This document shows positions 27,812 to 58,754 of a stretch of DNA of 64,000 nt, piece after piece (the first letter of the stretch is position 1; the number at the start of each line of letters is the position of its first letter). The DNA lies in NCBI GenBank assembly GCA_016858145.1, contig JAEHOE010000059.1, positions 1-64,000 on the forward strand, written 5' to 3'. The stretch comes from Edaphochlamys debaryana (taxonomy: Eukaryota > Chlorophyta > Chlorophyceae > Chlamydomonadales). The translations under genes were made by a program, and so were the position numbers. Under the pieces are notes generated by a model, which was not told where the DNA came from, made no database searches, and saw only the letters and a list, made by a program, of their open reading frames with translations.

Positions 27812-30325
27812 ATGACAGAGGTACGCGGGTGACCGAGGATGGCGACCCTGGTCGACCGCCCTCGGTCTCGCAGCCAGCGCGCCCCTGAGCTCACAAAAGG
27901 AGCATATGGATACAACGATGTCTCCCGGCTCCTTGCCCCGCGCAGTTCTGGAAGAGCAACGCCATGCACTGGTGCGACATCTGCAAATGCTGGCTCAACG
28001 ACACCAAGGCGGCGAAGATGAACCACGAGCGGGGGGCGGGGCACCAGTCGAAGCTGGCGTTCAGTAAGCTCCGGGACCCGACGGGGGGGTGTTCTCCAGC
28101 AGGAGGGGAAAGCGCGGGAGGCACGGGGGGCGTGTGACAGAGGGGGTCCCTCCGGGACTTGTTTGGCAACGCGAGGTCCGGGAGCAGATGCCCTCGCCCC
28201 AGTCCCTGACTGCTGCCAGCTGGCAGCTGTACCCCATCAATTCCACTTGGTCTCAGTCGGCCTCCACGTAAGCCCCCTCCCCCTTCTGCCCACTCCCCTG
28301 CCAGAGCTCAAGGAGATGGGTAAAAAGGCCGAGAACGAGATCAAGCAGAAGGAGATCCAAGACATCGCGATGTCGAAGATCGACAAGGTTCGTACAGACG
28401 CACAGCCCGACTTAGTATTGTGTGTTGTTTAGCCCCTCCACCCCTAATCCACCCGCGTTCTACTACCGACACCCCCCGCCCTCACCCCTCAGGCCGCTAA
28501 AAAGGCATTTGAAGCGGACCGCAAGGCCGCCGAAGCCGCCGCGGGCAGCTGGGAGTGGGACGCGGGCAGCAGCTACTACTACAACTCCACGCACAGGTGT
28601 GCGGCGTGGGGCGGGGTGGGGGCACTGGGTGGGGTGTGTGGGGGGTTGGACCCGTACGGGCCGAGGCGGGGGCCTCCGGGGCGGGGGGGCCGGATGCATG
28701 GAAGGGGTACCGAGGCAGGGGTGGAAGAGAAGCGGTGCAGGCAAGGGGTGGGAGGGCGGGGAAGATCTTGCTGGCCACTGTGGGGTGAGGTGGCGCCAGC
28801 GCAGGAGCCCAGGGTATGGATGGGGCAGGGGGCTGGCGAGGGCTTGGCGCGCGTTTGGATCTGGACGAGCAAGGGTTGGGTCGGGACTGGGGACGGCCCA
28901 TCCAGGGGGGGGAGGGGTCGCAGTGGCGGTCGGGCGGGGCAGGTGCCGCACTGGGGCGGGTTGCCGTTGCGGTGCGTAGAGCGGGGACCAGGGGCCAGGG
29001 GCATGCACCGGGACGTTACCGGCATGCAGGCAGCACGGAGCAGCCTCACACCGGGGGGCAGGCGGCCCCTGGCTACGATGAGCCCACCCCTTCACGCGGT
29101 TATGAGCCTGACTACCTCTGAAGTCAATGCGAAGGCCTGAGCCAAAGGAAGGGCCACCCACACACACACCCGGTCACGTACACTGCACCCACCTCACCCT
29201 TGTCTCACCCCCTTCGGAAGGCCTGCGCCCTGCCTGCCAACGCCCCACAACGCCACCTGTACTTGTCGTACCGTATGACGCCGTGCCGTAACCGCCGTAC
29301 GCCCCCGCGTAGGTGGTACTACGAGCCCAAGAGCGCGTGGTACTACGGCGGGGAGCCGGAGGCGCAGTGGACGCAGGCGCCGCCCATTCCCTCGGCGGCG
29401 CTGTTCGGCACCGCCAAGCACAGCGGGGGGCCCGTGCCGCAGGTGGGGGGGAGTGGGGGTTGGGGGGTGCGTGGTGCGGGGTGGGATGGGGGAAGGAGTG
29501 GCGGCAAGGGCGGCGGGGAGGGGCCAGCGGTACTGGGGGCTACGGCGGGGGTCTGGGTAAGGGGGTTGGGAGTGGGAGGGGTTGGCCCGTGCCGCAGGTG
29601 GGGCGCGGGAGGGGGTGGCAGGGGGTTGGGCTCGGGATGGAGGGGGCGTGTGGGGGCGGGAGGCTGTGGGGCTGCGCCGCGATCCGAGGGCGGCGCTTCC
29701 GGCCGTGGTTAAGCTAGTAGTTTCATGAGCCGCGGGTTGCGGTTCAGTGTGTGCTTGTCAACGTGGCTGCTTGCCGGAAGGCTTTGCGGTGTGGTGAGAC
29801 GGAGGGGAAAGCCAGCCCTAGCGCCACATCCCCGTGCATCCCCCCCCCATATCCCTCCTTTCCCTCTCCATTGCTCGGAACTTCACCCCCTGCATGCCCC
29901 CCCTGCCACCCTCTTGCGACCCCCTCACCACCAAATCCCCCCGCCCCCCTTGTGCCCCTCAGGGCAGCACCGCCGTCGCCCCCAGCGGCCCCGCGGACGG
30001 CGGCGACGGCCCCATCGTCAGACAGACGGTGCAGCGGGTGGTGACGGTCAAGAAGCACCCACTGGCGGACGTGGGGGGGTACAAGGCGCCGACGAGCGGG
30101 CGGGTGGGGGGGAGCATGGGGTCGGGGATCACGCTGGAGGCGGAGGCGGGGGCGGGGGGGAGCGCGGGGGCGGGGGAGAAGCGGAAGCGGGAGGAGGGCG
30201 GGAAGGGCGGGGGCAAGGTCAAGGGGGAGGCGGTGTCCAAGGAGGAGGCGGAGGCGCTGGCGCGGAGAGAGGCGGCCAAGGCGCGAGTGGCGGCGCGGAC
30301 GGCAGCTGGGTTTGGGTACGTGTAG
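27812..30325 (+). CDS. ZOP1: ZOP1/WBP4-type pre-mRNA splicing factor
   Basis: Six exons: 27812-27820 (MTE only), 27946-28063, 28305-28387, 28493-28596, 29313-29442 and 29963-30325, giving 268 residues in consistent phase. The N-terminus reads MTEFWKSNAMHWCDICKCWL..NH..GAGH, a U1-C/matrin-type C2H2 zinc finger. It continues into a charged helix (KKAENEIKQKEIQ). An OCRE motif follows (WEWDAGSSYYYN, then RWYYEPKSAWYYGG), split by an intron. The C-terminus has the VSKEEAEALARREAAKARV helix typical of plant ZOP1. In plants ZOP1 acts with the spliceosome and in RNA-directed DNA methylation; animal WBP4/FBP21 binds the same complex. The tiny first exon is supported because MTE-(Y/F)-W is the conserved start of the family. 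Intron 5 carries an exact 20-bp echo of the exon 5 end. Confidence 0.88.
29584..29603 (+). repeat. Exon echo: ZOP1 exon 5 end
   Basis: 20 bp identical to 29429-29448 (last 14 nt of exon 5 plus the GTGGGG donor), 155 bp downstream inside intron 5. Confidence 0.85.
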
Positions 30326-31537
30326 GGCGAGGGCCGGGGTGGAGCCGGGAGGAGGGGTTGTGTGGTTGCGGGGTTGGGGCCGCGGACTGGGTTGGCATCT
30401 TCCGACTCAGCTCGGGGTCGCCGGGGCGAAGAACGGTGCAGGGGCTTGCGAGGGAATTGGGGACGACGATGAGGACGACAGCAAACGAACGAGGACAGTG
30501 TGAGGCATGTCGCATGCGAGGCAACGAATGGCTGAGGGCCCATGCATGGGGTCATTATAGACAAGGGGGCGGAGTGCTGCGGCGTCGCAGTTCGTAGGCT
30601 GCCTCTGAACGGGGCCCATGGGGGACCGTGCGTTGCGGTTTGCGGGTGGGGGATGCCCCGCTCCTGAAAAGCCTTCCTCGGGGATTCCGGGACCAGTTCG
30701 CGGTGCCGAGTCCTGCAGTTCGTGTTGTACCGCGTGCCGTCCGTACCGTACTATACCGCGGGATGGCACAGGGGCTGAAAGCAAACGGGCAATGCAGGCC
30801 AGGGCAGGGGCGGCCCCACTAGGACAGGGGTCTGAGGGGTGTGAGAGCATGCGCCCCCCCCCTGACCTGAGGTCCCCCGCGCGCGCCTTGACTAATTGAA
30901 GCCTCACCCAGTCCGCGCAAGCCACCGGTTCCTGATGCGACTGTGCAAGTGCATTTCACGCGCATTGCATGTTAGGGCATGTTGGTCTTGGCCCCGCCAC
31001 CCCCGCGAACCCTCAACACCCTCGTCAACACCCTGACCCTGCGTCCCTGCCAGGCCTCCCAGTCAACTCCAGCGAAGACCCACCGCACTTGCATCGTTCT
31101 GAATACACGGCACGGCCCCCTGCGAGCACAGATCCCACCGCACTCCCGACCTCATCTCATGGGCAATGCAGGCCAGGCCAGGCCAGGGGCGGCCCCACAC
31201 GGCCCCACAAGGTCAGGGGTCTGAGGGGTCTGAGAGCATGCGCCCCACTCGCCCTGAGGTCCCCTGCGTGCCCCTGGGCTTGGAGTAGCCTTGCATCCCG
31301 AGTCGCCCCGCTCGCAAAGTGGCAGGCCCCTACCCCAGATACCCCGCCCCCCACGAATACCGCTTGGTTGTGGCTTGTGGGCGCAGGCCATGCGGGAAAA
31401 TGTGGGGTTCTAGGGGGGGCAACGCGCGCGTGCGGACGCCCCCGATGAATGGGCGACAAGCGCACAAGCCCAACTCGCATTTGTAGCACCTGCCCCTCCC
31501 TCCCCTCCTTGGCCCTCACCTTCGTCACTTCACTAAC
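30326..31537. other. Spacer with a 100-bp direct repeat
   Basis: No gene. It contains the direct-repeat pair 30788-30884 / 31161-31274 and TACCGTACTATACCG-type GTAC-rich sequence near 30740-30765. Confidence 0.5.
30788..31274. repeat. Direct repeat pair, about 100 bp
   Basis: 30788-30884 and 31161-31274 share GGGCAATGCAGGCCAGG, GGGGCGGCCCCAC, AGGGGTCTGAGGGG, GAGAGCATGCGCCCC and CTGAGGTCCCC in order. The second copy has small internal duplications (GGCCAGGCCAGG, CGGCCCCACA). Confidence 0.75.
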
Positions 31538-34074
31538 ATGTCTACCAAGCGCCCACGCGAAGAAGACAGCGAGACAGCTAGCATCAGCTCAATTGAGAGC
31601 TCACAGGAGACAGAACCGAATGTCTTAAACAAGAGCGCCTTCGCTGAGCGATATGGCGCGCTTCCGATTGGGGTTCCTTGCAGCCTTCTGGAGTTCTGGC
31701 ACGCAGCACCACCGCTGCCAAACATCCCGCTCCCTGCCGTCAGCGCGTTGCTGCAGCTCGCTGAGCCGTCCGTGTGGCAGGCCGACCACGAGCAGTGTAC
31801 CCTCGAGAAGACTCGCCATGTTCTCCTGGCCATGCTTCCTGGTGCGCGCCCCCGAACGCTAGCAAGACTCGGCACGGGCGCGATTATCGGCATTTGGGCG
31901 GTTGGTTGGTAGGAGGGTGACCAGCCACAACCCTCCATGATCCCCTGACCCGCGGGTGAGAACAAGAACGGGCTCCCCCGCTACCAGCGTCCATGTGCTC
32001 TCCCATTGTGTCCCCCCGTGCTCCCCCCGGTGAATTTGCGGTGTGCAGGACTCCTCGCTTGCGGACCGACAGCGACTGCGACTGCAGGTGCCGGGTACGG
32101 CACCCCGGTGGTCTCACTCCGGGGTGTGCAGGAGCAGGCCGAGGACCACACCCCGCGAGGTGAGGTTCCCCCCGGCCCCCCCCTCCCACCTGCAAGGCCT
32201 TCCCTGGCCCCTTCTCCCGATGCTGGACTCACGGACGGCCCCTGACGTTACTCCTGCCTCGCAGACGCATCGCAACTTGCAGGGCCGGCGGAGCTGGTTC
32301 TGCTGCGGGTGCGCGACGCGGGCTGCCACGCTCGACTGCAAGTGCTGTCATCAGACGTGGACGAGGCCCTGAAACAGGCCGGGCCGAGGCAGCCCTCGCG
32401 TTTGTGGTTGCCCGCAACCGACCTTTCCAGATGGGGTTTTGGCAGGTGTGAGGCCACGGGCCGGCTGATCAGCATTGTCTTCCCACTTCCGGTATCCATC
32501 TAGGGTCTGGAGGGTTGGGGTGTGAAGGCGAAGACACGGCCCTCGACAAGGTGGCGTGCGAAGGGGGTGCTCAGGGCGCGAAGGGGGCTGTATGTTGGAG
32601 TCGGGCAGGTCGGTCCCATGGGAGGGCCCCGCTAGCCCGACTCCCTCTGTTGTGTCCCGCACCTTCTTGCCCCCTCCCTCCCCCGGACCAGGCGCTGGCT
32701 CAGGGTGTGGAGCTGGCCCGGGCCAACTCCCGGTACGACCCCCCCGTGCCGGTGTCGATGGTGCTCACGGACACGAGGGAGTGGTACTTCTTCACGCTCG
32801 TCGCCGTCAAGCCCCAGGGCCAGGTCAGCATTAGTCATGGTCAACATTAGTCATGGCCAGCATAAGTCATGGTCAGCATTTGTATTGGACTCTTGGTCAG
32901 GCTAGTCTTGGTCAGGCTGGTCTTGCGTAGCTAGCCCCGCCTAAAGCCAGTCTTGCGCGTGCGGCCGCCACGAGCCTTCGCCGTACACGCGCCAGTACCC
33001 CCAACCCCGTGCCTCCTGCCCGAACGCTGCGCAGGGCCCACTGGCGGCAGCGGACCCTGGAGCCCCCGCGCCGGCGTCCTCGTCTGCGGCCGCAGCTGCC
33101 TCCACGCAGGTGAGCAGCGGGGGGGAAGGGGAGGCAGCCGAGGACCCACCACCGGGCCCCCACGTACGTGCTCACACCGGTACCACGCCTGACTTGGCTG
33201 ATCACATCTCTTTGCCCTCGACCGCTGTTGCTTGATGCCATTACCGTGCCATCAAAAGCGCCCAACCCCAGCGAGGGACGGGCCGGCTGTCGTTAGCCCC
33301 TAAGCGTGCGCCCTGGCCGCTGCAACAGCGGTTTGTCTCTGACCGGTCCACGGTCCTCCGTTCGTGCCGCTACCCGATCTGCAGGGAGCGCCCGAGTTTG
33401 AAATTACCACCGACCAGGGCAAGCTGACGCTGCGCATGTCCCAAGTCGACTACGCGTCCTGCCCGTTCACGGCCGCGTCCGACAAAACACATGCCTTCCT
33501 CAAGGTACGGTACGGTACGGCACGGTGCGGTACGGCACCCTGGTGGCCTTGTGTTGCCCCACCCGCCTCGATCTCCGTCGAGCCCTCTGTCCTGAGCGTT
33601 GACACTTGCAGGCCCCGCCCCTATGCACGTGCTGCTGCGACCCTGCTGCAGTGTACGGTAACTCATGTGGTGTTCGCTGACCTGTATCCGCAGGTCATGT
33701 ACCGCCTCTACACCGGCCTCTACCCCGGGGCGAGTCTCCAGGAGCTCCCGGCGCGCATCGCGGAAGGGGAACGCAAAGCGCGCGAGGAGGCCGACGCCTG
33801 GGTGCGCAAGCTGGCTGCCGACTACACGCAGGTGGCGCAGGCGGAGGCGAGGGCAGAGGCGGCGGAGGCGAGGGCGAGGGAGGCGGAGGAGAGTGCGGAG
33901 GCGGCAAGGGCGCAGGCGGAGGCGAGGGCGAGGGAGGCGGAGGAGAGTGCGGAGGCGGCAAGGGCGCAGGCGGAGGCGAGGGCGAGGGAGGCGGAGGAGA
34001 GTGCGAGGGAGGCGCAGGCGGAGGTGCAGGTGCTGAGGGCTTTGTTGGATGCGCAGACGGCGAACCGTCAATAG
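31538..34074 (+). CDS. Coiled-coil family protein, copy B
   Basis: Nine-exon model: 31538-31900, 32049-32087, 32132-32159, 32265-32447, 32504-32550, 32692-32823, 33035-33109, 33385-33504 and 33694-34074, giving 455 residues with consistent phases. The first exon's donor (31900) and the 32447 donor are the least certain. Parts in order: a Ser/Glu-rich start (KRPREEDSETASISSIESSQ); a globular region (PAELVLLRVRDAG, LQVLSSDVDEALKQ, LWLPATDLSRW); ALAQGVELARANS followed by VPVSMVLTDTREWYFFTLV; an Ala linker; the RMSQV exon; and the coiled coil ending TANRQ. The LTD..W.FF strand after a helix is reminiscent of restriction-nuclease-like domains of Crinkler-type eukaryotic proteins, but no catalytic set is visible, so this is weak. 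Copy A (1-1376) shares 19 of 40 residues in the RMSQV exon and nearly all of the last exon. Confidence 0.68.
32824..32892. repeat. AGTCATGGTCA tandem repeat in intron
   Basis: Four to five imperfect 15-bp units (GTCAGCATTAGTCATG, GTCAACATTAGTCATG, GCCAGCATAAGTCATG ...) begin at the donor of the 32692-32823 exon, so the GTCAGC donor itself is repeated. Confidence 0.8.
33505..33540. repeat. GTACGG tandem repeat at a donor site
   Basis: GTACG GTACG GTACG GCACG GTGCG GTACG starts exactly at the intron boundary after exon 33385-33504, giving several adjacent candidate donors. Confidence 0.75.
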
Positions 34075-34131
34075 GTTGCGCATCGCGGGGACACAGCCAC
34101 AGGTGCGGCGGCAGAGTTTGAGGTTGGCTTA

Positions 34132-34366
34132 GGCGGAGGCGAGGGTGGAGGCGGCGGAGGCGGCGAGGGAGGCGGCGGAGGCGCAGGCAAGGGAGGCGAG
34201 GGCGCAGGCGGGGGAGGCGAGGGCAGCGAGGGAGGCGGCGGAGGCGCAGACAAGGGAGGAGAGGGCTGCGAGGGAGGCGGCGGAGGCGGAGCTGAGGCAG
34301 TTGAGGGCGTTGCTGAAGGCGGAGGCGGAGGCGGCGGGGGCGGGGGCGGGAGCGAAGGGCATGTGA
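34132..34366 (+). other. Candidate alternative terminal coiled-coil exon of copy B
   Basis: After the stop of copy B, a CTTAG acceptor-like site is followed by 77 codons of heptad sequence (AEARVEAAEAAREAAEAQ .. LRQLRALLKAEAEAAGAG), stop at 34364-34366. Its end resembles the normal terminus (VLRALLDAQTANRQ). Copy A's 3' flank is collinear (GCGCATCGCGGGGACACAGC..) but lacks this 240-bp block, so it was inserted or duplicated in copy B. Splicing to it from an upstream donor would swap the C-terminus. Confidence 0.4.
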
Positions 34367-35324
34367 GCATGCCAGGCGGGCCCCTTCTGACACAGGCTTG
34401 TTGCGGCCCGCTGATGGCGCGTGGCTGTCGGGGAGCTGAGGCAAAGGAGGGTGGGGCGTCTTTAGCTAGGACGGGTTACGCCCTGCCCGGCAGGCGGCAG
34501 GGGGGAAGAGTGGAGCTGCGACCGTGGTGAGGGGTTACTGGAGTGACTGGAGCTGTTGGGTAGACGCTCACCCGCAGCCTTTGCTGGCGGGCTGCCAGAC
34601 ACGGAGTGCTGTTGGCAGGTTGGGCTTGAGTGCTACACGGTGCGGTGTGGAAGCGCGGAGGCTGTCGTCGGGGGCACAGCTAGCTGAGCGCGCTGGGGTG
34701 AGCGGGGGTCTGCCACTCTGCCTGTCCTTGTTACATTTCGCTCACCGGCTCAAAGCGGCCTGCTGCCAAGGCGAGCTAGCATAGCCGCCGGCTCAGTCAG
34801 CCCAGCAAGGGAAGGACGCACTCCTGCTCCTCGTCCGGCGCCCGCCGCGCCCCGGCGCCAGGGCCCTCGGAGGCCTCTGCTCCCAACGGCTTTCGACGCT
34901 TGCCGCCCTCCCCTGGCCTCCGCGCCTCGGCACCGCCCAAACCGCCCCTGGGCGCATGCCCATGCGTCCACCGACTCCACCCTGTCCTGCGATACGCTTC
35001 GATACTGACCCAACTGCACGGCCGAAAGGTGCTCGGCCCTAGCACCAACACACGACATAACCCATGCCGCCTGCAGCTACTCGCCCCCATGCAAGAGAGG
35101 GCAAAGGCAACACAAGTTAGAACCTGTCGGTGTGACAACCGCCTCCCCAACATGTCAGCCGATCACTGCGTCATGCTCGCGTCAGAGCACTAGCTCGCCC
35201 GGGTCGGGTCAAGGGAAGCGAGCCAACCTGCCATCACGCGGCTGCCTGCCCCCGGGCACCCCAACAACGGCGGGCCACGCCTCCTCCCTCCATGTTTCCG
35301 TCATCAGTCTTCATGTCCCCGCTA
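34367..35324. other. Spacer between copy B and OMA1
   Basis: The two genes converge here. No further gene was found, and no clear TGTAA or TTACA signal is close to either stop. Confidence 0.5.
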
Positions 35325-38300
35325 TCAACCGAAGCGAATGCCCTCGTCTCCGAACCCAGCCCCCCCGGCGAAACCGCGGTGGAAGCCCCCGGCGCCGCGG
35401 TCCCAGCCGCTCCGGCGGGAGGCACAGCCTGGCGGACGATGGGGGGGGGGGGGGTCGGGGGTCGGGGGGTGCGATGGTGCACTGCAGGCTGACAGGCGAC
35501 CAGGGCCGTAGGACCGCTCAAAACCGCCCTACGAGCCTGCCGCCTGGCGGGGGCGCCGCCCTCCCCCCCCCTCCCCCTTACCCGACTGAATGTACGTCTC
35601 CGCCGCCGCCTGCATCTGCCCCTAAGCCCCCCTCCCCCTCCCCCTGTCCCCCTCCCCGTTCAGCCGCCTTAACGCCCTTTCAACCTCTCCCCCCCTCCCC
35701 CCCCCCTTACCCGACTGCATGTACGTCTCCACCGCCGCCTGCATCTGCTTCTGAACCAGAGCCACCCGGTCCTCCGTCAGCGGGTGGGTGCGCAGGAAGG
35801 CGGGGATGGGGGGGGCGAAGCCGCGCTGTGGTTTGGGGGCGGGGTGTGGGGTGGGGGCGGGTGGGGGCGGGGATGTGAAGGGGGGGAGGGGTGGGTGGGG
35901 GGAAGGAGGGCGAGGGGGTGGGTGGGGTGGAGGGGGGGTGTTGGGTGCGGGGCGGGGGGGCGGCAGGAGGTGGAGAGGGTGACCTCAGGTCAGCGCAGCG
36001 GTGAGGTGGGCAGGGCATAACGAGGCAGGGGCGGGTGCGGGGGTTGGCATCGAGGAGCCAAGGGGCCCGGCAGGCAGGGCCGCCGCGCGCCGAGGCTTGA
36101 CTCCACCCAACCTGCCCCGGAGCTGCCGCACTGCCGGACCACGCAGCCCCTCCACCTGACCCCTGGGCATTCCCCGCCCCTCGCCCCCCCTTTCCACCCG
36201 CCCCCACACATGCACCGACCCACTGCCAGGGCAAGCCACGCCCCCGCCAGGCTCCCACGTGCTCCCCCGGAGACCCCTCTCCACCCCCCCTTGTCCCCCC
36301 TCTTCTACTCCCCCCCCTCCCCTGTCCAAGACCCCCCCCCCCCTCCCTTCAAGACGCTCGAAAACATACACCCCTCCCCCCCCACACCTTGCTCATCTCC
36401 TTCTCCGCCCGGTTCAGTTTTGCCAGCATGAGGGGTGCGGCGGAGGGGTCGAAGCACGCGCGCGCCATGAGCCGCAGGCCGATCAGGTCCGCCTCGTGCT
36501 CGGCCAGCCTGCGGTTGGCGGTTGGCGGTTAGCGATTGGGAGTTGGAGGCAGGTGGTCGTGGTTGGCGGTGGTTAAGGGGGTAGAGGTGCGAGGGTGGGG
36601 TGCGAGCAGATCCTTTCCCTGCCCTGCGCCGTACTGCAGTACGGCCGTACCTCGAATACGGCAGGAAGATGCCCATGTACCTGAAAGGGAGAGGGCCAGT
36701 TGGGGGCGGGTGACGGGAATCCCGAGGGCACGGGGTTCTAGGTAATGATGGCAGCGTGTGTTCGCCAGATGTGATCCGTGGCCATCGTCAGTTTAGGGAA
36801 GCTGTAATCAACCCACACAACCCAAGCCCACAACCCACGCATATCCCCACCTTGCCCCCCCCCTCCTCACATGGCCACGTTGGGCAGGCCGAAGCCCAGC
36901 GTCAGGCGCATGACCCCCCTCCCCCTCTTGCCTCCCCCCCTTGCCCCCCCCTCACATGGCAACATTTGGGAGCCCGAAGCCCAGCGTCAGGCGCATGATC
37001 ATGTTGGCCAGAGTCCACACGTTGAGCGTGGACATGCGCTCGGCCTGAAAGGGGGGGGGGGAGGGGGGAGGGAGGGGGGGAGGGGGAAGGGGTGGAGGAG
37101 GGCTGCCCTCTGTGTGGGGAGGGGGGTTGAGAGTGGACATGCGCTCGGCCTGAAAGGGTGGGGGGGGGGAGGGGGGAGGGAGGGGGGGAGCGGAGTGGAG
37201 CGGTAACAGGGGACTGGTGCAGTGGTGCCCCTCCCACGGCACAGTGGTCCTCTCCCACACTTCCAACCCTGCGGCCATGCGACCCCAAGCGCCCCCCCTC
37301 CAACCCGGGCAGGGGTACCCACCAGGGATCCTTACGGTGGATGCACCGCAACCCACCACCACCCCGTGGCCCCCCCCTGCGGTGCCATCCCCACCACCAC
37401 CACCACCACCACGACCCGCCCCTCACCGTGTGTCGGGCCAGGATGTGCCCCACCTGGAAGGGGAGGGGGGGCGATGCGGGGAACGCGGGGAGGGGTTCGT
37501 GTTTGCATGTGGCGGGGGGCCATGCGGGGAACCGGGAGGGTGCGTTGATGTGTATGTGTACGGCAGGGCGAGGAGAGGTGCAGCAGCAATTGGGTGCAGG
37601 CGTGCGGCACGGTGCGGGTGCCGGGGGGGGAAGGTATGGACTTCAAGGAGGAGCGGAAGGGCGTCTTTGTGTGCGGCCTGACGCACGTGCCGTACAAGTC
37701 CGTACCGTGCCGTACGGCCTGCCGTACCTCGTGCGCCATGACGGCCGCCAGCTCGTCGTCCGAGTGGCCCAGCAGGCGCAGCAGGCCCGTGAACACCACC
37801 ACCTGGGGGGAGGGAGGCGGGGGCGGCGGGGAAACAACGGGGGAAGGAGCGTGTGTGTTTTGACACGCGTGCCACGCCTCCCCAACCCCCCTCCCTCCCC
37901 TCCCTTCCGCCGCACCTTGCCCCCCGGCACCACGAACGCGTTGGGCGTGGGGTTGTCGATCACCGCAAACTCCCACTGCAGCCCCTTCATGTGCTCGCTG
38001 TAGCCACCGCCGCCGCCGTCGGAAGCAACCGCCGCGATGGCACTGCCCAGGCGCCGGACGCGTACGGCATCGGGGGCTGAGTCGGGCAGCAGGCGGCCCT
38101 CGGAGGCGGCCAGCGCTTTTTGCTTGGGGAGTTGGGGGGAGGGAGGGGATGGGGGGGGGCGCGTGGTGAGGGTGCAGGGGAGGGGGGGAGAGGCGGGCAA
38201 GGGAGGGAGGGATGGGGCAGGGGGGGTGAGGGGAGGATGAGGGGAGGGTGAGGGAGGGTGAGGGGGGGTGAGGCGGGGGAAGGGAGGGAAGCGGGCCGGG

Positions 38301-40446: not shown

Positions 40447-43007
40447 ATGGCCTTCTTACAGCGCTTGGCGTCCGGTATCAAGGACACGCTATTCGGGGGT
40501 GGTGGAGAGTCGTCACGGCCAGGCACTGCTTCCTCTCCGACGCCCCCAATCGCACGCAATAGCCGCGGGCTCAGCAAGACCTCGTCCAACGGCCGGGGCA
40601 ACCGGCCGTCGACAGCGTCCCTCGGATGGCTGGAATCGCACATTCGGGACGCCATTGCCCAATTCGTGCAGGACAAGTTCGATAAGGTAATTGCCGGTCG
40701 GTCATCACGCTGCGCGTTACGCCGAGCCAAGCACCCTGCGAGCTGCTGCTAGCCTGGGGCGTGTCAGAGCCTTCGTGGACGGGCGTTGATCCGGCCGGGG
40801 GCTGCCCCCCAGCCCACCGCAAGTCAGCCCCCCAGTCCCCCACCTTCCCTCCCCTCCCCCACCCTCCCCTCACCCCCCTCACCCATTCCCTCCCTCCCTC
40901 CCCCAACCCCTGACAGGGCCAGTGCAAGCCCCACGTGTTCACCCAGTTCTGGCTGCAGTTCCCCAAGCTCGAAGCCGGCTTCGCGGTGCTCCGCTCGCAG
41001 CTGGAGGCGCGCACGGGTTGCCGCGAGGGCCCGCTGCCGCTGGGGCTGCTGGCGGCGCACCCGGAGGACTTTGGCCTGGGCGGCGGAGGCGCCAGCGGCA
41101 GCGGGGTGGTGGGGGAGCTGTGCGCCAAGGCCGCCACGCAGCGGGCCTGCAAGGACGTGAGCTGGGGGTGGTGGGATGGGGAAGGGGCTGGTGTATGTTG
41201 GGAATGGCCGGGGGGCGGGGGTGTGGGTGTACTTAAGGGGATTGCAGGAGCCAGGGCAGCGGGCCTGCAGGGACGTGAGCTGGGTTTGAGGAAAAGAGGG
41301 AGTGAAAAGGGAGGAGGACGAAGAATAGGGAGGGGAACTATGAGAGGGTAGGCGGGCAAGGGAGCGGGTGACATAGTGGATGACAGAGCGCCTGTTCCGG
41401 GGAGGGACAGGTACGGAGCCAGGTCGTGAGGGGGACGGGGGCACGGGTGAATGGGGGGACGTCGTGGGGCATCGTGATCGGAGGATGGCTGAGGCCAGGC
41501 CAGCCCGGAACAATCGGGGCAGCGCCAGGGTGCGTCCGCCCCACAGCAGGGCCCGACGCCTGACTTGCTTTTTCACCCCACCCCACCCTTGCTTGTCCAC
41601 CCCCACTCTGCCCCACGCGTCACATAACACACACGCTCCCCCCCGCTCCTCGCCCCCTCTCCCCCCCCCAGCTGGACTTCGTGGGCCTAGTGATGCTGCT
41701 GCTGGTGGTGCACATCACGGAGCCGCAGGCCATGGAGGGGGCGGCGCCCGAGGTGCACACCATGCTGTCGTGCCTGGTGGGTCGGCATAGCAGGGCTTGT
41801 GTGTTGGGGCTTTGGTATTGTGCTGACCCTTTAGCAACAGGTGTTAGGGGTTGTGTGTACAGGGCCGCTCGTGTAAGCCTGGGAAACGTAGGCGCGGCGG
41901 AGAGCAGGCTGGGTTTCATAGCACAGTACGCTGTCGTGCCTGGTGGGTTGCAGGGGGGGCTGGGGTGGAGGGGCCTCGAGGCGAGGGGGGCACACGTGGG
42001 GTCGTGCTGGGGGGCGCGGCGTGGCGGTGGGGGGCATGGATTGCAGGGGGCGGGGCAGGGCCTGGGCGGAGTCAAGCCAGCCCCTCGCCGGCTGTTCCCT
42101 CCCACCATCACTCCCACCTTCACGCCGCTCCCGCTCTTTCGTCCTCCCCCTTCCTCGCGTACACTGCGCAGTCCCGCTCAACCACCCCTCTCCCCCTCCC
42201 CTCCCCTCCCCTCCCCTCCCCTCCCCGCGCCCCGCCCTTATCTCCCCAGGAGCTGGCCTTCACGCACTTTAACTCTGCCCGCAAGGGCAAGTTGGACAAG
42301 CGGGAGGTCGGGGAGGCGCTGCAGTACGAGAGCGCCAAGGCGCACGCCAAGGAGGGGCGCGGGGGGCGCACCAGCAACCGCCTGGCGCACCGCCTATTCG
42401 AGGGCCTCGACTGGGAGGTGAGGGCGCTTGCAGCGATGGGGTTAGGAAGTAGAGGAGTGCGCGTGAGACTGGGAGGTGGGAGGCAGGGGCAACGGGCGGG
42501 GAAAGAAAAGTAGAGAGCGCGACAATGGCTGGTGGGCAGGCGCCGGGCGGAAGAACTCGGAACAAAGGACGGGGAGGGGTGGTTGAGGCAGGGAAAGGCA
42601 GGCGTCAAGTTGGGGCGTAGTACACCAGCCTCTAACTGCCGTACCTCCCTGCCGTACCCCTGCAGTACGACAACACGATCTCTTTCGAGAACTTCCTCCG
42701 CGGCATCCTGCAGCTCGTGTCAGACGAGTTTGGTGACGAGGACGAGGACGAGGACGACCCCCTGGGCCTGGGGCCCGCCGGGGCCTCCACTGGGCCCGAG
42801 AGCGGCACCGAGGAGGCGGCGGGCCCGGGGCAGGCCCACGCGCGTGGCCGCCGGCCCTCAAGCGGCGTGGGGTCGGGCAGCGCGAGTGCCAGCGGCGCCG
42901 CCTCCCCCGCGCCCCCCCGCAACACGCCCCCGGCTCCCCAGCACCAGAACAGCCGGGGGGCGGCGCCAGTGGCTTCTGAGCCCCCCCCGCCGGCGGCCTC
43001 GGAGTGA
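40447..43007 (+). CDS. EF-hand-like protein with acidic tail, unknown
   Basis: Five exons: 40447-40686, 40917-41156, 41672-41776, 42250-42417 and 42666-43007, all phase 0, giving 364 residues. The N-terminus is basic and Ser/Gly-rich (MAFLQRLASGIKDTLFGGGG). Exon 2 has FTQFWLQFPKLEAGFAVLRS. Exon 3 is hydrophobic (LDFVGLVMLLLVVHIT), either a buried helix or a single membrane span. Exons 4-5 read FTHFNSARKGKLDKREVGEAL ... LFEGLDWEYDNTISFENFLRGIL. This is a helix-loop-helix pattern like paired EF-hands with DWEYDNTISFENF as the second loop, but the Asp/Glu spacing is not canonical, so calcium binding is uncertain. The tail is acidic (DEDEDED), then Gly/Ser/Pro-rich. An upstream in-frame ATG (40360) exists. 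ATG 40447 was chosen because the sequence before it looks non-coding. Confidence 0.7.
41256..41284 (+). repeat. Exon echo: EF-hand-like gene exon 2 end
   Basis: 28 bp matching 41138-41165 with one mismatch (end of exon 2, RACKD, plus the GTGAGCTGGG donor), 118 bp into intron 2. Confidence 0.85.
41930..41948 (+). repeat. Exon echo: EF-hand-like gene exon 3 end
   Basis: 19 bp identical to 41764-41782 (codons for LSCL plus the GTGGGT donor), 166 bp into intron 3. Confidence 0.8.
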
Positions 43008-43068
43008 GGCGCGAGGCGGGGTTGTGGGTGCGGGTGGGGGAGGGGAGTGGTGGCGGCAGCGGGGTTTG

Positions 43069-43073
43069 TGTAA
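43069..43073 (+). terminator. TGTAA polyadenylation signal
   Basis: TGTAA 62 nt after the stop codon of the EF-hand-like gene, in the expected position for algal 3' ends. Confidence 0.6.
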
Positions 43074-50806: not shown

Positions 50807-53800
50807 ATGCAGGCGGACGCGGGCGCGTCCAAGCCAGCAGAGGAGGGTGGGTGGTAGCGGGTGTCGATATACTGCTTATGCCAATTCGTCATTAGGCAGC
50901 GACCGGGCTGCGCATGGCGATTCAGCGCGCCGCCTGCATCGCCGGCCCCAGCGCGTCCAGTTGGCTTCTGCCCCTATCATACCACCCCTACTCGGACTCG
51001 ACGCGGCACGAGGGCGGTGGCTCCTGTTGCGCGCTCCTAAGCCAGCGACAGCTGGGTCAAGCCTGCGCGGCTCCCCCCCCCGCCACCCCCGGCTGCCCGC
51101 AGCTGCCAAGCCGGATCCCACGCCGGTCAAGAAGTCGTGGGCCGATGAGGCTGACGAGGACGAGGGCCCCCCGCCCGGATTCGAGGGGGAGGCCGTGAAG
51201 GCGGTGGCGGAGAAGCTGGAGGGAGCCAAGGTGGGACTGGGGGCCGGGGCCGGGGCTGGGGCTGCTGGTGGTGGGTGGGGCTGGGCCTCGTGTATGGGCT
51301 CCTCCTGGGGGCTGGGGGCTGGGGTCTCAGGAGGGCATGCGCTCGGGCCCTGCCATGGCCCCCCCTGGAGATTCGGCAGGGAGGGGGACAGTCCCCCGGG
51401 CGGCCCAAGCCTGCTGGCCGCGGGCCGCAGGCAAGGGGCAGGGGCAGGGGCCGCTGCAGCGGGGTGCCCAGGTGGACAAAGCGGCGCCTGGACAGGACGT
51501 GGCTTTGAAGTGGCGTGGCGCGGCGTGGTGCGGTGCGGCGTCGAGGCATTGGCGGGACGCGCTGCAGTGCGTGTGCTCGGCGCGGCATGCCCCAGAGTCA
51601 GAGCGGCGCCCCCAGCGGCAGCGGACCCGCAGCGAGGCATTGGCGGCAGGCTCGGGCGCGGGTGCTGCGTCGGGAGGCCCTGTGACGGCACCTCCCAGTT
51701 TGGGAGCAGGCGGCGCTGTCAGGGGCAGCAGACTGGCGGCTGGGTGGGCGGGAGGCCTTGGCTGTACCTCCCAGCTTGGGAGCAGGCGGCGGCCCCAGCG
51801 GCAGCGGAGCGGCGGGCAGGCGGGTGGGTGCCGGCCCACCACTGAGGCCGCGGCTTCCAGGCCCGGGGGTGCGGGGGCGCGGGGCTTCCAGGCCCAGCCC
51901 CTGCCAGCGCCTGCTCCGAGGGCTCTGGCGGAGCAAGGGCGCTGGCAGGGACCCCCCCCTCTGGCGGCTTCTGTGTTTGTGGGGGTGGAGGGGGGCACAG
52001 GGCTTTCCGTCCCAGCACGTGCCGCCTCTTTGGGCAGCAGGCGCTAGCAGGCACACCCCCCCCCCTCTCTCCAAGGCCCCACCGTGGCGGGGAGGAGGAG
52101 GGGAGGGGGGGGAGGGCCGCGCCGCAGCCCACGGTCCTGCGCGCCCCAAGCGGGTGCGGCGGTGGCGGCCGCGGAGCAGCGGAGTGTGTGTGTGTGTGGA
52201 GGCGGGGGGGGGGGGGGGTCGAGGCGGCTGTTGGGGAGGGCTCTCTCCTGGGACACTCCCCACGGCGTTCCCTTGCGGCGGTGCCATAGAGAGGCACCCT
52301 GCGGTGCGCTCCACGCATTGTACCCCGCATGGGCCTCCCGCGGCACTCTCCTGGAGCACTCCCCTCGGCGCTTGTGACCCGTGCTCCTGTCGTACCGTGT
52401 GTCCACACACGTGCCCCCGCCCGCTGCCCACGTGCCCACGTGCTGCTCTCTCCACAGGTGGCGGAGGTGGGGGTGGACGAGCCGGACCTAGCGCTCAAGA
52501 CGGAGGGGCTGCGGGAGCGGCCCGAGGCGGAGATCACCACCAAGACCGAGGTAAGGGGGGGGGAAAGGGTAAGGGGAGGGAGGGGGGCTCGGGGGGGGGG
52601 GGGGCAGCGAATGAGGTGCGCTCCGAAGCGCCCAGCAAACCCGCCCGGGGGAGGTGGGCGGTGGGGGAAGGGGGGGATGGGTCGGGTGCAGGTTGGATCG
52701 GCGCGCGTTGGGGCGTGTGCTGTCGGGGGCAGGGCGGGGGAGGGCCGCACGTGAGGCCTTGGGGGGTAGCGAGGGCGGGGGCGCTCGGGGGGGGGGTAGC
52801 AAGTGTGCGGCGGGGTGAGTGCTGATGGGGGAGGTCCGCTTCGTCCGAACCGCAGCAAGTGCCCGCCGGTCCACACATCATCGCCCCTATCCCTCTCGGC
52901 TAGTCACGTCGCTTGCCGTTTTCCCGGCGTATCGAGCAGCCCTTCACACATTCCCGCTCTCCCTCTCCCCTTCCACTCTTCCCCCCCCCCCAGGGTGACT
53001 CCATCTACGCCTCGGCTCACAAGTTCGAGGAGCTGCCGCTGTCGCCCGAGCTGCTCAAGGTGGGGGAGGGGGGAGTGGGGGGGAAAGGGGGGGGAAGAGC
53101 GGGGGGGGGGCGTGTGTGTTTGGACACGCGTGGGTCTGGGGGAAGTTCGAGGAGCTACCCCTGTCGCCCGAGCTGCTCAAGGTGGGGGGTTGCGGGGGAG
53201 TGGGGGGGGGAAAGAGCGGGGGGGCGTGTGTGTTTTGGCACGCGTGGGGTCTCAGGGGAGAGGGCAGCAGGGGGCGTGTGCAGTGGTGGGCGTGGTGGGA
53301 TGAGGATGGGGGCGGGGAGCGTGTGGAGCCAGCCATTGTCGCGCCGGATTGCGCCCGAACCGGCCCCGATGGACGGCCTGCCTCTTGACCTCCCCCCCTC
53401 CCCTTATCCCCCTGACAGGGCCTGTACGTGGAGATGAAGTTTGAGCGCCCCTCCAAGATCCAGGCCCTCACGCTGCCCATGATCCTGACGCCGCCGTACA
53501 AGGATCTGATCGCGCAGGTGCGCCCACGTGTCGTGCTGCTGGGGGGGGGTCGGTAGCTGAGAGGGGCTTTGGGCCTGCGATTGCTGGGGAGCAGGAAGGC
53601 AGTCGGAGGGAGCGTGGGGGTTCAGTCCGGGTGGGCCCTGCGCCTTGCATCTAGCCGCACCCACCCACCCACCCTCCCCTCCCCCCCCTTTCCTCCCCCC
53701 CCCCCAGGCCCACAACGGCTCCGGCAAGACCACGTGCTTCGTGCTGTCGATGCTGAGCAGGTGTGGGGCAACGGAGGGGAAGGCAGGGGGTGAGAGGGGG

Positions 53801-56800
53801 GAAGGAAGACGTGTGTGTGTATGGGGCAGCGGGTGGTAGGGTGCTTCGTGCTGTCCATGCTGAGCAGGTGGGGGCGGGGGAGGGGGGAGGGGGAGAGGGA
53901 TGCGCTGCTGGGGTGCCCACGGCGCTGTGGCCGTGGCGCGGGACACGTGTGGCTCAAGCGTCTGGGCCGGTCAGGCGCATCACCACACCTCCCTCCTTAG
54001 CCCTCAACTTCTTCCCGTACCCCTCCCCCCCTCCCCTCTTCCCCCCCCTGTCAGGGTGGACCCCTCCAAGCGCTTCACGCAGGCCATGTGCATCTGCCCC
54101 ACGCGAGAGCTGGTGGTGCAGGTGGAAGGGGAGGGGATCGGGGGTGGGTGTGGAGGAGGGGGGTGAGCGTGGCCAGGAGGTCTTCGTTGCTGTGTGGGCG
54201 TGCAGGGTCGGGTAGCATCGGGCGCTTGAAGGTGGGAGGGGGCTACACATGGGGGTAGCGGTTAGGGCGGCAAGGGGCCGGCATGGTGGCAGGGGTAGCA
54301 TGGTTTCCAGGTGTGGGTTCCCCCCCCTCGGAAGGGGCGGTGTCGCGGTTTGAGCCCGCCCCTTTCCCGCTTACCCTTCCCCCGCCCCTTACCTCCCTTC
54401 CCCCCCCCTCTTGCCTCCCTTGCCTCTCCCCCCCCCCCCAGAACCTGACGGTGCTCCGCAAGATGGCCAAGTACACCACCATCACCGCCACGTCCACCGC
54501 CTCGGAGACGGAGGCGGGGGGCTCAGGCATCCGGAGGGACCCAATCAACGAGCAGGTGTGTGTGTGTGTGTGTGTGTGGGTCCGTAGGGGGGGGAGGGGT
54601 GAAGGGGGGGGGCAGGGAGGGGTAGGGGTGCTAAGGGCTGGCAGGCAACCGCATCCGTATGCCCACGCTCAGCAACCCTTAGGGGTGGGGGGCCTGGAAG
54701 TTGAAAGGGCGGCGCTAGCGCCGGTGTGTCCGTGTTTATCCTGAGGGGGAGCAGGTGGGGGGATGGGGAGGCAGGTGGAAGTGATTTCCGTACTGATCCC
54801 CACAGTTGGGGGGCTGGGGGCAGGCGGGTGCACTGGGGCGTGGAGGGAAGGCGGTGCCAGGGTGCACCAGCGGGGGGCGGAAGCGCTGCCGGGATGCAGG
54901 CGGGGGGCGGCCGTTGACCTCTCCGCCCTCGCCCCCACGCACAGCGGGCGGGGGGCCGGGACGGGGCGCTCCATGGCCCCCCGCCACACCTCCTCCTCCC
55001 CTCCTCCCTGCCTGGGCCCCCCCCAGTTCCTCACCCTCTCCGCCCCTTCCCCTCGTCCCTCCCCCCCCCCGCAGGTGGTGGTGGGAACGCACGGCAAGCT
55101 CAAGAACTGGGTGCAGGTGCGGCGGGGGGGGGGGTCTTCTGAGCGTCATGGACTTGAAGGCGGCGGCCGGCGGAGGTTCGGAGGGAAAGGTCCGTCTTCA
55201 CGGTCGTCGTTGTCGGCTCAGGGTCAGGGGGAAGTGGGGGGGTCCAGGGACGAAAAACTGGGTGCAGGTGCGGCGGCTGCGTGCGTGGGGAGGCAGGGCC
55301 GGCCCCTCCATCTGTTGTGGTACCACCCCTCCATCTGTTACCCGCAGGACCCGCTACTGAGCCCGCCGCATGCCCGCATGCCCACACACACACGCCCATA
55401 CACACACGCTTTACCCCCCGGCCCCCACCTCTCCTTTCCCCCGGACAGAAGCGGCTGCTGGACCTGGAGGGGGTGGCCATCCTGGTGTTCGACGAGGCCG
55501 ACGAGATGCTCAAGGCGGACGGGTTCGCGGACGACTCGGTGCGGCTGATCAAGAGCATTCGGCGGAAGAACCCGGGGGTGAGGGGGATGGGACAGGGTGG
55601 GGGATTGGGGACGGAGGGACGGGGGTGCTGGGAGGGAGTTGGGGGGGCCGCGAGGGGTGGGACCGCACGGGGGCGAGCCTCTGAGCCTCCCGCTGGCCTT
55701 CCTCCGCTGCCCCCCTGCCCTTCGCCATGCGGTACCCGTCCTCGCACCCCCGCTCATTCCCCTTCTTTGCACCCCCTCCCACCCCCCTCCTCGCCCCCAG
55801 GTCCAGCTGCTCCTCTTCTCCGCCACCTTCAACGACGTCGTCAAGCGATTCGCCATCAACATCGCGCCCAAGGCCAACCAGGTGGGGGGGGCCCGCCTGG
55901 GCCCGCCTGGGCCTGCCTGGGCCTGCCTGGGCCTGCCTGGGCCTGTCCGTCTGCGGCTCGGGGCCCGGGGCAGCATGAGCTCACCGCCGGCTACTACAGG
56001 ATCTTGCGCCTCGTCAAAGTTGGCTCCACGCCGTGTACCACCAAACACCTGCTGCCAGCGCAGTCCGGGTCCGGGGTACTGGGGTCCCGGGCCCCTGGGT
56101 TCTAACGCCTAACGCGACGAAACCCACATGCTCCCAACCTGCTCTCACCTCCCCCGCCCCCCCTCCCGCCCCCCCCGGAAGGTGTTCGTGGCCAAGGAGC
56201 AGCTCAGCCTCGATGTCATCGCGCAGCACAACGTACGGTGAGTCGTACTGGTACGACACAGTCCGTACATCCGTACCAGGCGGTACATTGCCAGCGACGA
56301 GCCCCCCCTCCGCACACAACACCCCACCCCACACCCAGCTGCCCCGACGCGCGTGCTCCAGGAGATGATGCGCCTCCCCTGACTCCGACGCGTCGGCAAA
56401 ACACACACGTGCCTCGCCCCCTTTCCCCCCTTCTGCCCCCAGCTGCCCCGACCGCGGCGCCAAGACGCGCGTGCTCAAGGAGATGATCTTCCCCAACTGC
56501 GAGCGCCTGGGGCAGACCATCATCTTCGTGCGCACCCGGGACACGGCTAAGGTGGGGGGGAGGGAGGGGGGGCTGAGGGGGGAGGAGGGGGAGGAAGGTG
56601 CGTGTGTGTTTTGCCGACGCGTGGGGCAGACCATCATGTTCGTGCGCACCCGGGACACGGCCAAGGTGGGGGGATGGGGGGGAGAGGGAAGGTGCGTGTG
56701 AGTTTTGCCGACGCGTCGAATGGCACAGTGCCGCGGCTGCGCACCGGGGGGGGGCATGCGGGATCCGTGGGTTACACAAGCTCCTTGTATCCCGAGTATC

Positions 56801-58754
56801 CCGCGCCCTGTGCCAAAACACACCCGTCTCACCTTTTCACCCCTTTCCCCCCCTTCCCCCTCCCCCCCGCCCAGCAACTCCACGCCGAGATGGAGCGCGA
56901 CGGCTACAAGTGCACCTCCATCACCGGCGACATGCAGCACACGGACCGAGACCGGGTGGTGCAGGTGGGGGGGGGAGGGGCCTAGAGGGGGGCTAGGGGA
57001 AGGAGGGGAGGGAAAGGAGGTGGCAGGCGAGGGGAGCGCCAAGGGACAGAAGTGGACCGGGGGGCCGGGGGGTAGCACACCGACCGAGACCACGTGTTGC
57101 AGGGAGGTGTGTTTGTGTATGGCTGCTCGCTTGAGCCGAGGGAAGCGTAGGCGCTGGGAGTCGCCGGCCGGGATCAGGGTCACGGGAGGGAAGGCAGGGG
57201 CGAGTGTGCGCGGCGGCTAGGGCGGTGGCAGTCGTGTGGCTGCCCGCCCCTCCGAAGTCATAGTGAAGCAGCCCTCTTCTCACCCCTCCCCCCCATCCCT
57301 CTTGCCTCCGCCCCTCCCCCCTCTCAGGAGTTCCGTGACGGTACGACCAAGATCCTCATCTCCACCGATGTGCTCAGCCGAGGCTTCGACGTCAGCCAGG
57401 TGCGCCCGGATCCAGATCCAGATCCAGATGGTCACGCACAGCCCGCCAAGGCTATAGCCAAGGCAGCCGCTGCATCAACTACGACGTGCCCGTGTCATTG
57501 CACACCTCCCACTCCCCTATGGTCCCTCGCCCCCTCCGCCCCTCCCCCCCAAAGGTCATGGTCATCAACTACGACGTGCCCGTGTAATTTAAAACACACC
57601 TCCCCCCCCTCAACCCCCCTCTCTCCACCCCCTCCCCCCTTCAGGTCACGCTCGTCATCAACTACGACGTGCCCGTGGAGCGCGACGGCACCACCCCCGC
57701 CTACGAGACCTACCTGCACCGCATCGGCCGCAGCGGGCGCTTCGGGCGCAAGGGCGCGGCCTTCAACCTGACCTGCACGGGCCAGGTGGGGGGGGGGGCG
57801 GAGAGGGGGGCAGAGGGTGAGGAGGCGGGCGAAAGCGAGGGAAGGAGGGAGGGGGGGCCGGGGAGAGGGTGATGGAAGTGCATGTGTGCGCTGCGCCCTG
57901 TGCCACGCTGCCAGCCCAGTTTGCACCCGCGTTGCTCCCACGCGTACTCGGGGTAACGGGCCCTGCTGTGCGCTGCATGGTCGTTGCACTGCGAGAGAGC
58001 CTGCGTCCACACACACACTCCAGGTCCATGGGGCTTCGGTTTCCTCGGGCTTTCGGTTCCGTATCTAAGGCCGGCCGCCTAATCACCGTGCCTGAGACTC
58101 CCAGGCTCATGCGAGCAGCCCTTCACACTCCTGGTCCATGTCACGGGCCTTGGTCTGCGTTGCATGGTTGGGGGCATGCGGTGCGTGCGGTGGGCGGTGC
58201 TGTGCGGTGATGACGCAAGACTTCGCGGCCCGAGGGGGGCCCGGGCGGGGCGGGCGCGGCCGACCGGGGCAGATCCCGAGAGCCCGCTGCCCCCCCGTCG
58301 CCCGGCACCCGCCCCCCGGTGAGGGCGCAAACAAGATTTGTGCGTGTCTGAGCACAGCCCGCGGTCCGCACCGCCTGGCCCCGGCCCTTGACGTTGTGTC
58401 GTGGCCACCCGCATGCCACCGCTGGTCCCACACAACCTGCCCTGCCCCACACTCGGGCGTCTCTTTCGTCTTCCCCCCTTCCGTTGTTTCCCCTCTTCAC
58501 CACCCACTCACACCTACCCCCTGCCCCTTGCCCCTCTCCTCCCCACCCTGTCAGGACGCGGACGTGATGGAGCGGATCCGGCACACACACGTCATCCCTC
58601 CCCCCCCCTGCCCCCTCCCTCTCCCCCCCATGCCTCCCCCTGTCAGGATGCGGACGTGATGGAGCGGATCAGCAACTACTTCAACAAAAACATCGACGCG
58701 CTCAAGTGGGACGACGAGGACGAGTTCGTCAAGGTGCTGGACAAGACGCTGTGA
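50807..58754 (+). CDS. DBP5: DBP5/LOS4-type DEAD-box RNA helicase
   Basis: 17 exons: 50807-50846, 51103-51230, 52458-52550, 52994-53059, 53419-53517, 53708-53760, 54055-54121, 54442-54555, 55075-55116, 55449-55577, 55801-55881, 56182-56237, 56443-56551, 56875-56964, 57328-57399, 57645-57785 and 58647-58754. They sum to 1488 nt, 495 residues, the usual length. Motifs in order: Q motif FERPSKIQ; Walker A AHNGSGKT (53708); PTRELV; GTHGKL; DEAD (55491); [28 protein letters not shown]; and the DBP5 ending [21 protein letters not shown]. The N-terminal extension has [14 protein letters not shown]5 remodels mRNPs at the cytoplasmic side of the nuclear pore, activated by Gle1 with inositol hexakisphosphate and countered by Nup159/214. 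The start was chosen because exon 1 ([13 protein letters not shown]) joins exon 2 in phase. The introns contain many exon-edge copies. Confidence 0.92.
51600..51950. repeat. Direct repeats in DBP5 intron 2
   Basis: CCTCCCAG(T/C)TTGGGAGCAGGCGGC occurs at about 51698 and 51766, and related CAGCGGCAGCGGA units occur at about 51615 and 51800. GGGGC(T)TTCCAGGCCC is also repeated. This makes the 1.2-kb intron internally repetitive. Confidence 0.65.
53111..53131 (+). repeat. GTGTGTTT-ACGCGT box, DBP5 intron 4
   Basis: CGTGTGTGTTTGG, ACACGCGT. It lies between the true exon 4 end and its echo. Confidence 0.8.
53143..53187 (+). repeat. Exon echo: DBP5 exon 4 end
   Basis: A copy of 53021-53066 ([13 protein letters not shown] plus the GTGGGG donor) with two substitutions in about 45 bp, 122 bp downstream. 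The amino-acid sequence is preserved except for one conservative change. Confidence 0.9.
53225..53245 (+). repeat. GTGTGTTTTG-ACGCGT box, second copy, DBP5 intron 4
   Basis: CGTGTGTGTTTTGG, CACGCGT, following the exon echo and its own G-run. Confidence 0.8.
53841..53870 (+). repeat. Exon echo: DBP5 exon 6 end
   Basis: A copy of 53734-53763 (CFVLSMLSR plus the GTG donor), one mismatch in 30 bp, 107 bp into intron 6. A GTGTGTGTATGGGGC stretch lies between the copies. Confidence 0.85.
55253..55276 (+). repeat. Exon echo: DBP5 exon 9 end
   Basis: A copy of 55102-55125 (KNWVQ plus the GTGCGGCGG donor), one mismatch in 24 bp, 151 bp into intron 9. Confidence 0.8.
56334..56373 (+). repeat. Exon echo: DBP5 exon 13 start
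   Basis: A copy of the exon 13 acceptor and first codons (56439-56490) lacking 12 nt (CGCGGCGCCAAG). It lies about 105 bp upstream of the true acceptor. Confidence 0.75.
56388..56409 (-). repeat. Antisense GTGTGTTTTG-ACGCGT box, DBP5 intron 12
   Basis: ACGCGTCGGCAAAACACACACG: exact reverse complement of the box at 56601-56622. It lies between the exon-start echo and the true acceptor. Confidence 0.85.
56601..56622 (+). repeat. GTGTGTTTTG-ACGCGT box, DBP5 intron 13
   Basis: CGTGTGTGTTTTGCCGACGCGT, directly abutting the exon 13 end echo. Confidence 0.85.
56622..56671 (+). repeat. Exon echo: DBP5 exon 13 end
   Basis: 50 bp matching 56508-56557 with two mismatches ([14 protein letters not shown] plus the GTGGGG donor), 114 bp downstream. 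Confidence 0.9.
56695..56716 (+). repeat. GTGTGTTTTG-ACGCGT box, second copy, DBP5 intron 13
   Basis: CGTGTGAGTTTTGCCGACGCGT, one base different from the box at 56601-56622, 94 bp downstream. Confidence 0.85.
57473..57583 (+). repeat. Two exon echoes: DBP5 exon 16 start
   Basis: CATCAACTACGACGTGCCCG occurs at 57473, at 57562 (preceded by an AGGTCATGGT acceptor-like copy) and in the true exon 16 (57657). The echoes are followed by CACACCTCC or TTAAAACACACC and then C-runs. Confidence 0.85.
58548..58578 (+). repeat. Exon echo: DBP5 exon 17 start
   Basis: A copy of 58640-58670 (CTGTCAG acceptor plus DADVMERI), one mismatch in 31 bp, 92 bp upstream of the true acceptor, followed by CACACACACG and a C-run. 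Confidence 0.85.

Follow-up and report, generated by a model that had tools for sequence, protein, structure and literature searches.

Tandem duplications of exon edges within introns of the green alga Edaphochlamys debaryana, and a short dispersed tag at the junction of a subset

In the green alga Edaphochlamys debaryana, exon edges are tandemly duplicated together with their splice sites, leaving a second copy (here called an echo) inside the adjacent intron. What is new here is that in a minority of echoes a dispersed tag, GCGTGTGTGTTTTG-N1-4-ACGCGT, lies between the two copies. We studied the echoes in a window, the whole stretch of 64,000 nucleotides that was analysed, which is the start of contig 59 of an assembly of 141.9 Mb in 502 contigs, and followed the tag through that assembly. 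A common tag at some of the junctions suggests that introns are being reshaped by a recurrent process of repair or insertion. Repeated duplication of edges offers a direct way to lengthen introns and to duplicate splice sites, and the traces that it leaves can be dated. Core-Reinhardtinia algae are described as having conspicuously long introns of unexplained length (PMC8226300); since the tag makes it possible to count events and to follow them to a source, the question of how introns grow becomes testable. In the open literature searched, mostly by title and the start of the abstract, no description of exon-edge duplications or of the tag in these algae was found.

Fourteen exon edges in the window have an echo (Table 1): one in ZOP1, three in OMA1, two in an EF-hand-like gene and eight in a gene for a DBP5/DDX19-type helicase. 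The names ZOP1 and EF-hand-like were taken over from an earlier note on this DNA, and OMA1 is a Peptidase_M48 match. The DBP5 model translates without an internal stop, matches DDX19B (3fht) over most of its length (E 1.6e-93) and is 100% identical over 439 amino acids to the annotated E. debaryana protein HYH03_010844, with which its outer splice sites agree. The DBP5 edges come from this checked gene model, and those of ZOP1, OMA1 and the EF-hand-like gene were read by eye. By our count, the edges are ten donors and four acceptors, so the four acceptors of the earlier note stand and its eight donors become ten. The ‘regular spacing’ noted there survives as a broad peak near 110 and not as a fixed period, with ranges of 85-138 in the window (from the scan described below) and 86-208 in a genome sample; the similarity across genes probably reflects the position of G-rich tracts. 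Self-comparison of the window returned 30 direct repeats within 1.5 kb, and local duplications with spacings of 78 and 66, not assigned to an exon edge, also occur at 51671-51828 and 61879-62022.

Table 1. Exon-edge echoes, tags and the DBP5 gene in the window (positions in the window; percentages give identity of edge and echo)
Feature	Position	Strand	Details
ZOP1 donor	29429..29602	+	Edge 29429-29447, echo 29584-29602; 19-mer identical at both; tag search negative
OMA1 donor	35560..35748	-	Edge 35689-35748, echo 35560-35619; 92% over 60 bp; spacing 129; without tag
OMA1 donor	36844..36998	-	Edge 36933-36998, echo 36844-36913; 86% over 70 bp; spacing 89; without tag
OMA1 acceptor	37021..37193	-	Edge 37021-37085, echo 37126-37193; 93% over 68 bp including intron part; spacing 105; without tag
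Tag GCGTGTGTGTTTTGACACGCGTG in OMA1 intron of about 115 bp	37849..37871	+	Without significant echo; intron limits by eye
EF-hand-like gene, donor and echo	41138..41284	+	97% over 29 bp; spacing 118
EF-hand-like gene, donor and echo	41755..41948	+	89% over 28 bp; spacing 166
DBP5/DDX19-type helicase gene	52458..58754	+	15 exons and 14 introns modelled; clean translation
DBP5 intron 2 donor, complete tandem duplication	53021..53248	+	53021-53134 with 53143-53248; spacing 122; tag variants 53110-53132 and 53224-53246
DBP5 intron 4 donor and echo	53734..53897	+	Spacing 107; decayed tag, 3 mismatches
DBP5 intron 7 donor and echo	55102..55276	+	Spacing 151; without tag
DBP5 intron 10 acceptor, echo ahead of real edge	56346..56487	+	Spacing 118
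Inverted tag between acceptor echo and exon 11 of DBP5	56388..56410	-	1 mismatch to 23-mer
DBP5 intron 11 donor, complete tandem duplication	56504..56716	+	56504-56622 with 56618-56716; spacing 114; tag at 56600-56622 and 56694-56716
DBP5 intron 12 donor and echo	56936..57103	+	Spacing 138; without tag; GT lost in echo
DBP5 intron 13 acceptor	57473..57677	+	Two echoes (57473, 57563); real edge 57656
DBP5 intron 14 acceptor	58517..58670	+	Echo 58517-58578, real edge 58604-58670; spacing 87

In the case of DBP5, every exon edge (at most 60 bp) was compared with its own intron, and 364 pairings of an exon edge with another intron served as the control (99th percentile at a score of 23, maximum 56). 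Eight of the 28 edges, located in eight of the 14 introns, score above the 99th percentile, and comparing each edge with its own intron reversed gave scores of at most 17. The control maximum is beaten by only two of the 28 edges and is higher than six of the eight; we suspect that true echoes of neighbouring exons sit among the mispaired controls. A scan of edge-like sites that uses no gene model, with its threshold at the 99.9th percentile, detected an echo at 13 of 110 sites in the window (0.1 expected; one in the inverted control) and at 9 of 294 sites in a 140-kb sample of the genome (0.3 expected; one in the inverted control), some window loci being hit twice and two of the nine sample matches being neighbours at one locus (L019). 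The sample consists of 14 of 20 stretches of 10 kb, six with long repeats having been dropped before the count. Echoes thus occur elsewhere in the genome at a few per cent of edge-like sites and are denser in the window. The echoes that the earlier note had described at exon edges of the four genes prove to be real, in DBP5 as judged against mispaired and reversed controls. An assembly artefact is an unlikely source, since the copies have diverged through substitutions and indels, and unrelated loci share the junction tag. The top entries of k-mer enrichment lists pointed to nothing at exon edges.

The best-preserved repeats comprise the whole unit, edge plus intron start, which bears out the tandem duplication of exon edges considered in the earlier note: they are adjacent direct copies that contain the splice site. 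Two complete duplications are found in DBP5 (introns 2 and 11), and the closest pair, 98% identical, lies at L019 (656-754 and 759-857), where the second copy has GC instead of GT. Because a tandem duplication across an edge leaves only the outer copy joined to the exon, the echo always lies in the intron, and its placement requires no special copying device on either intron side. The model of Rogers, in which duplication of an exonic AGGT segment gives a new intron, does not describe the DBP5 echoes, as their units span an existing edge and the gene model needs no new intron. Between DBP5 edges and their echoes, 9 of 15 mismatches fall on third codon positions, too few to interpret (automatically set reading frames left only five mismatches). 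At the OMA1 donor at 36844-36998, edge and echo differ, by eye, in five codons and at third positions only, and the echo holds the apparently preferred codons, which is odd for a dead copy.

The junction of the two complete DBP5 duplications carries GCGTGTGTGTTTTG or a one-base variant of it, and this sequence is widely dispersed. The longer form GTGTGTTTTGNCGACGCG occurs at 95 exact places in the genome and its reversed pattern at none; all 95 were examined, 88 in the main locus set and seven in further loci. With arrays included, the 14-mer GCGTGTGTGTTTTG has 307 genomic matches (five for the reversed pattern) and the bipartite form GTGTGTTTTG-N1-4-ACGCGT has 217 (three in the control); the reverse complement of the tag reads CAAAACACACACGC. 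Among the matches listed, the spacer before ACGCGT is, by eye, CCG, TG, GC, AC, CG, GG or one of a few more, and these limited forms look like tag subfamilies. Conservation stops after ACGCGT(C), with only about 20 nt common to 63 loci, and no source RNA or parent element of the tag was found in our searches. By eye, tag copies cluster on contigs C54, C55, C65, C67, C78 and C130 and in the window.

To relate tag and echo across the genome, the first match per locus and strand was taken, giving 70 loci, with 1381 mispaired controls. An echo of the exon edge directly after the main tag scores above the control 99th percentile at 40 of the 70 loci (38 of 63 in an earlier run) and above the control maximum at 30, with one of 70 in the inverted control. 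A match is seen, too, for the block 100-200 nt downstream of the tag, in 8 of 64 loci and perhaps due partly to arrays, and most of the variant tag sites listed have strong echoes as well, many of them in arrays. At the other 30 of the 70 loci no echo exceeds the 99th percentile, which counts against the explanation favoured below, and at the tags of L090-L093 no echo was detected over more than 2 kb. Within the window, a clear tag (0-1 mismatch) accompanies 3 of the 14 echoes and a decayed one, whose match beats shuffles, a fourth (DBP5 intron 4), whereas ten have no match with 0-3 mismatches that beats shuffles at p 0.05. Duplication is therefore the wider process, of which the tag marks only a part, and the idea that echoes are footprints of an element copying the junction is supported for a subset, namely the 40 main-tag loci, with the tag explaining a minority of the window echoes.

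Where tag and echo occur together, their arrangement follows one order. Reading away from the exon, the edge is followed by the G-rich start of the intron, the tag, a mostly G-rich filler of 0-29 nt and the echo, and the tag is directed away from the exon along the G-rich strand both at donors (sense strand) and at acceptors (antisense strand). Curation by eye kept 30 of 38 echo sites (16 donors and 14 acceptors) and left out eight (L085, L030, L037, L070, L031, L051, L038 and L034) as arrays, ambiguous edges or lacking an edge. At the 30 sites, the duplicated exon part measures 38.8±11.9 nt (17-70), the intron part 39.0±9.0 nt (23-57), and the total 77.8±12.8 nt (53-102). Exon and intron parts show no significant anticorrelation (r -0.27, p 0.15), and a fixed distance from cut to cut is thus not supported; a measured total unit length, put forward by an automatic analysis (r -0.63), was set aside, as some of its edge calls were wrong and the signal was gone after curation. 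At four young loci (L041, L080, L053 and L069) the exon copies are nearly identical and the tag is present at the junction only, and in the arrays L047 and L048 it is missing from the last unit only. With the inner copy free of the tag, tag and duplication would have arisen together at these six loci, and the pattern is that expected from an insert made with its target duplication. Against this, both copies carry the tag at L036, L082 and the window duplications at 53021 and 56504, and at L040 the second tag is altered.

Of the 43 G6 runs in DBP5, 21 are found no more than 48 nt downstream of a donor; of the 32 C6 runs, 24 are found no more than 50 nt upstream of an acceptor. The tag sites, about 39 nt from the edge, are close to where this G-rich tract runs out on the side away from the exon. 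At L030 and L046 the tag adjoins a G run, and no exon edge is apparent by eye. The simplest reading is that G-rich 3' ends are the target and that exon edges are hit because G runs lie there. At L046, tag and G run also adjoin a long inverted repeat resembling a hairpin element.

We hold with moderate confidence that the best explanation is staggered breakage at G-rich intron ends followed by fill-in, with a templated extension by the tag in a subset. The data show the duplication, its geometry, the tag at the junction, the strand rule and the dispersal of the tag, and from these we infer cut positions, fill-in, template and enzyme. One cut would fall in the strand that is G-rich when read away from the exon, close to the distal end of the intronic tract (some 39 nt past the edge), and the other in the opposite strand, about 39 nt back within the exon. 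The broken ends would then carry complementary 3' overhangs of about 80 nt; filling in and rejoining both overhangs would duplicate the stretch between the cuts. In the subset, the G-rich 3' end would first be extended by GCGTGTGTGTTTTG-N1-4-ACGCGT, most simply copied from an RNA or DNA template, and some G-rich filler would be added after the tag before joining. The outer copy, continuous with the exon, would remain the working edge and the inner copy would be stranded in the intron, and unequal exchange or slippage would later turn some of the units into arrays, with as many as 17 copies. Its position, just where the G-rich 3' end would be, makes the tag resemble an addition to that end; a template is argued from the limited subfamilies and the constant start, and the short constant length suggests that the template is short or that copying stops near ACGCGT. 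More tentatively, the tag is possibly a minimal mobile sequence of about 20 nt, bipartite and with subfamilies, that a telomerase- or retroelement-like enzyme would copy from RNA to the G-rich 3' ends left by breaks next to exons, each insertion duplicating about 80 bp of edge and so steadily lengthening introns.

Alternatively, repair by template switching could dispense with RNA: a polymerase stalled in the G-rich tract would jump to another tag copy and return upstream, the tag thereby spreading as copied filler. Filler bases at the junctions, tandem arrays and the G-rich sites would all suit this route, which we nevertheless consider unlikely, since the 28 fillers testable match what follows the tag elsewhere in the genome no clearly better than shuffled filler does (mean longest match 8.71, against 8.18), which mildly disfavours spread by switching to other copies.

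Several exons are bracketed by inverted tags, and these bear on a transposon origin. Seven segments (window exon 11, L048, L089, L097, L099, L100 and L104) are each flanked by a pair of inverted tags, the distance between the tags being 135-197 bp, and L078, an array, is bracketed likewise over 320 bp. Four bracketed segments have an echo on either side. Those of L104 come within 4 nt of each other, as though a single event had split the exon; gaps of 11, 16 and 51 nt separate the echoes of the other three. That one insertion produced both echoes of an exon is not established, L104 fitting better than L099, L100 and exon 11, and independent events also explain the bracketed exons. Ectopic capture of a bracketed exon was rejected for DBP5 exon 11, which in the search made matches only itself and its own donor echo. 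As a single strand, the exon 11 segment is predicted to form a long hairpin (z -8.7), and the one Rfam match, to a plant microRNA precursor family (39 bits, below the gathering score of 200), is taken to reflect this long hairpin of a tag-bracketed exon.

Such bracketing would be expected if the tag were the inner part of the terminal inverted repeat of an introner-like DNA transposon, with introns laid out as G-rich tract plus tag at the start and inverted tag plus C-rich tract at the end, and with echoes arising from aberrant excision or gap repair. The seven segments besides L078 agree with such an element, as do the introns of L075 and L048, which have tags in inverted orientation at both ends, the position of the tag 23-57 nt from the edge at the 30 curated sites and the existence of tag sites without a detected echo. 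We regard this origin as rather improbable: the loci have about 20 nt in common, with conservation ending after ACGCGT(C); L030 and L046 combine tag and G run where no exon edge is apparent by eye; in several young cases the inner copy lacks the tag; and a search for the palindromic pair GTGTTTTG-N4-14-CAAAACAC gave no match, by which a single palindromic element is rejected. Ordinary small tandem duplications, standing out at exon edges only because exon ends are complex in sequence and intron interiors of low complexity, with internal ones hidden in masked introns and the tag an unrelated dispersed sequence, would accommodate the ten window echoes without a significant tag match and have a known precedent across an exon edge (PMC4974935), but are the least probable account, as 40 of 70 loci have the tag between the two copies, on a consistent strand and at a consistent distance.

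The duplications and their tag share features with several known systems. In a potato RdRp gene, one tandem duplication across an intron-exon boundary gave a new mRNA intron (PMC4974935); there too a direct duplication takes in intron end, exon start and splice site, whereas the duplications described here are many, affect donors and acceptors, leave the echo intronic and in a subset contain an inserted tag. Small tandem duplications are reported to arise in mouse and human cells when CST-Pol alpha-primase fills in complementary 3' overhangs (PMC8355091); there, as proposed here, the stretch between two opposed nicks is duplicated, followed by end joining; that system used experimental 43-bp overhangs, and in the available text neither a fixed tag nor a preference for exon edges is mentioned. 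Introners are reported to be families of highly similar introns, some with target duplications of 3-9 bp, found mainly in fast-evolving lineages, e.g. green algae (PMC9860276). Like introners, the tag is a repeated sequence dispersed in the introns of many genes; in contrast to them, high similarity along the whole intron is missing, the duplication covers about 80 bp, and, with only about 20 nt common to the 63 loci, the class of introners does not fit.

Non-LTR retroelements insert by target priming, in which the 3' end of the primer is extended by copying and target duplications are variable or absent. Duplications of variable length are found here (53-102 bp at the 30 curated sites, none detected at others); unlike in non-LTR retroelements, neither a poly-A tail nor an element body was seen, nothing being conserved past the tag among the 63 loci, and no parent element was found.

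Finally, tags also occur in arrays of 10 to 17 copies spaced about 103-125 bp apart, at C2:2766285-2768160, C54:466007-467467, L047 and L104, those on C2 and C54 being known from match positions only. Each unit of the L047 and L104 arrays contains an exon edge, and coding edges can therefore yield intronic minisatellites.
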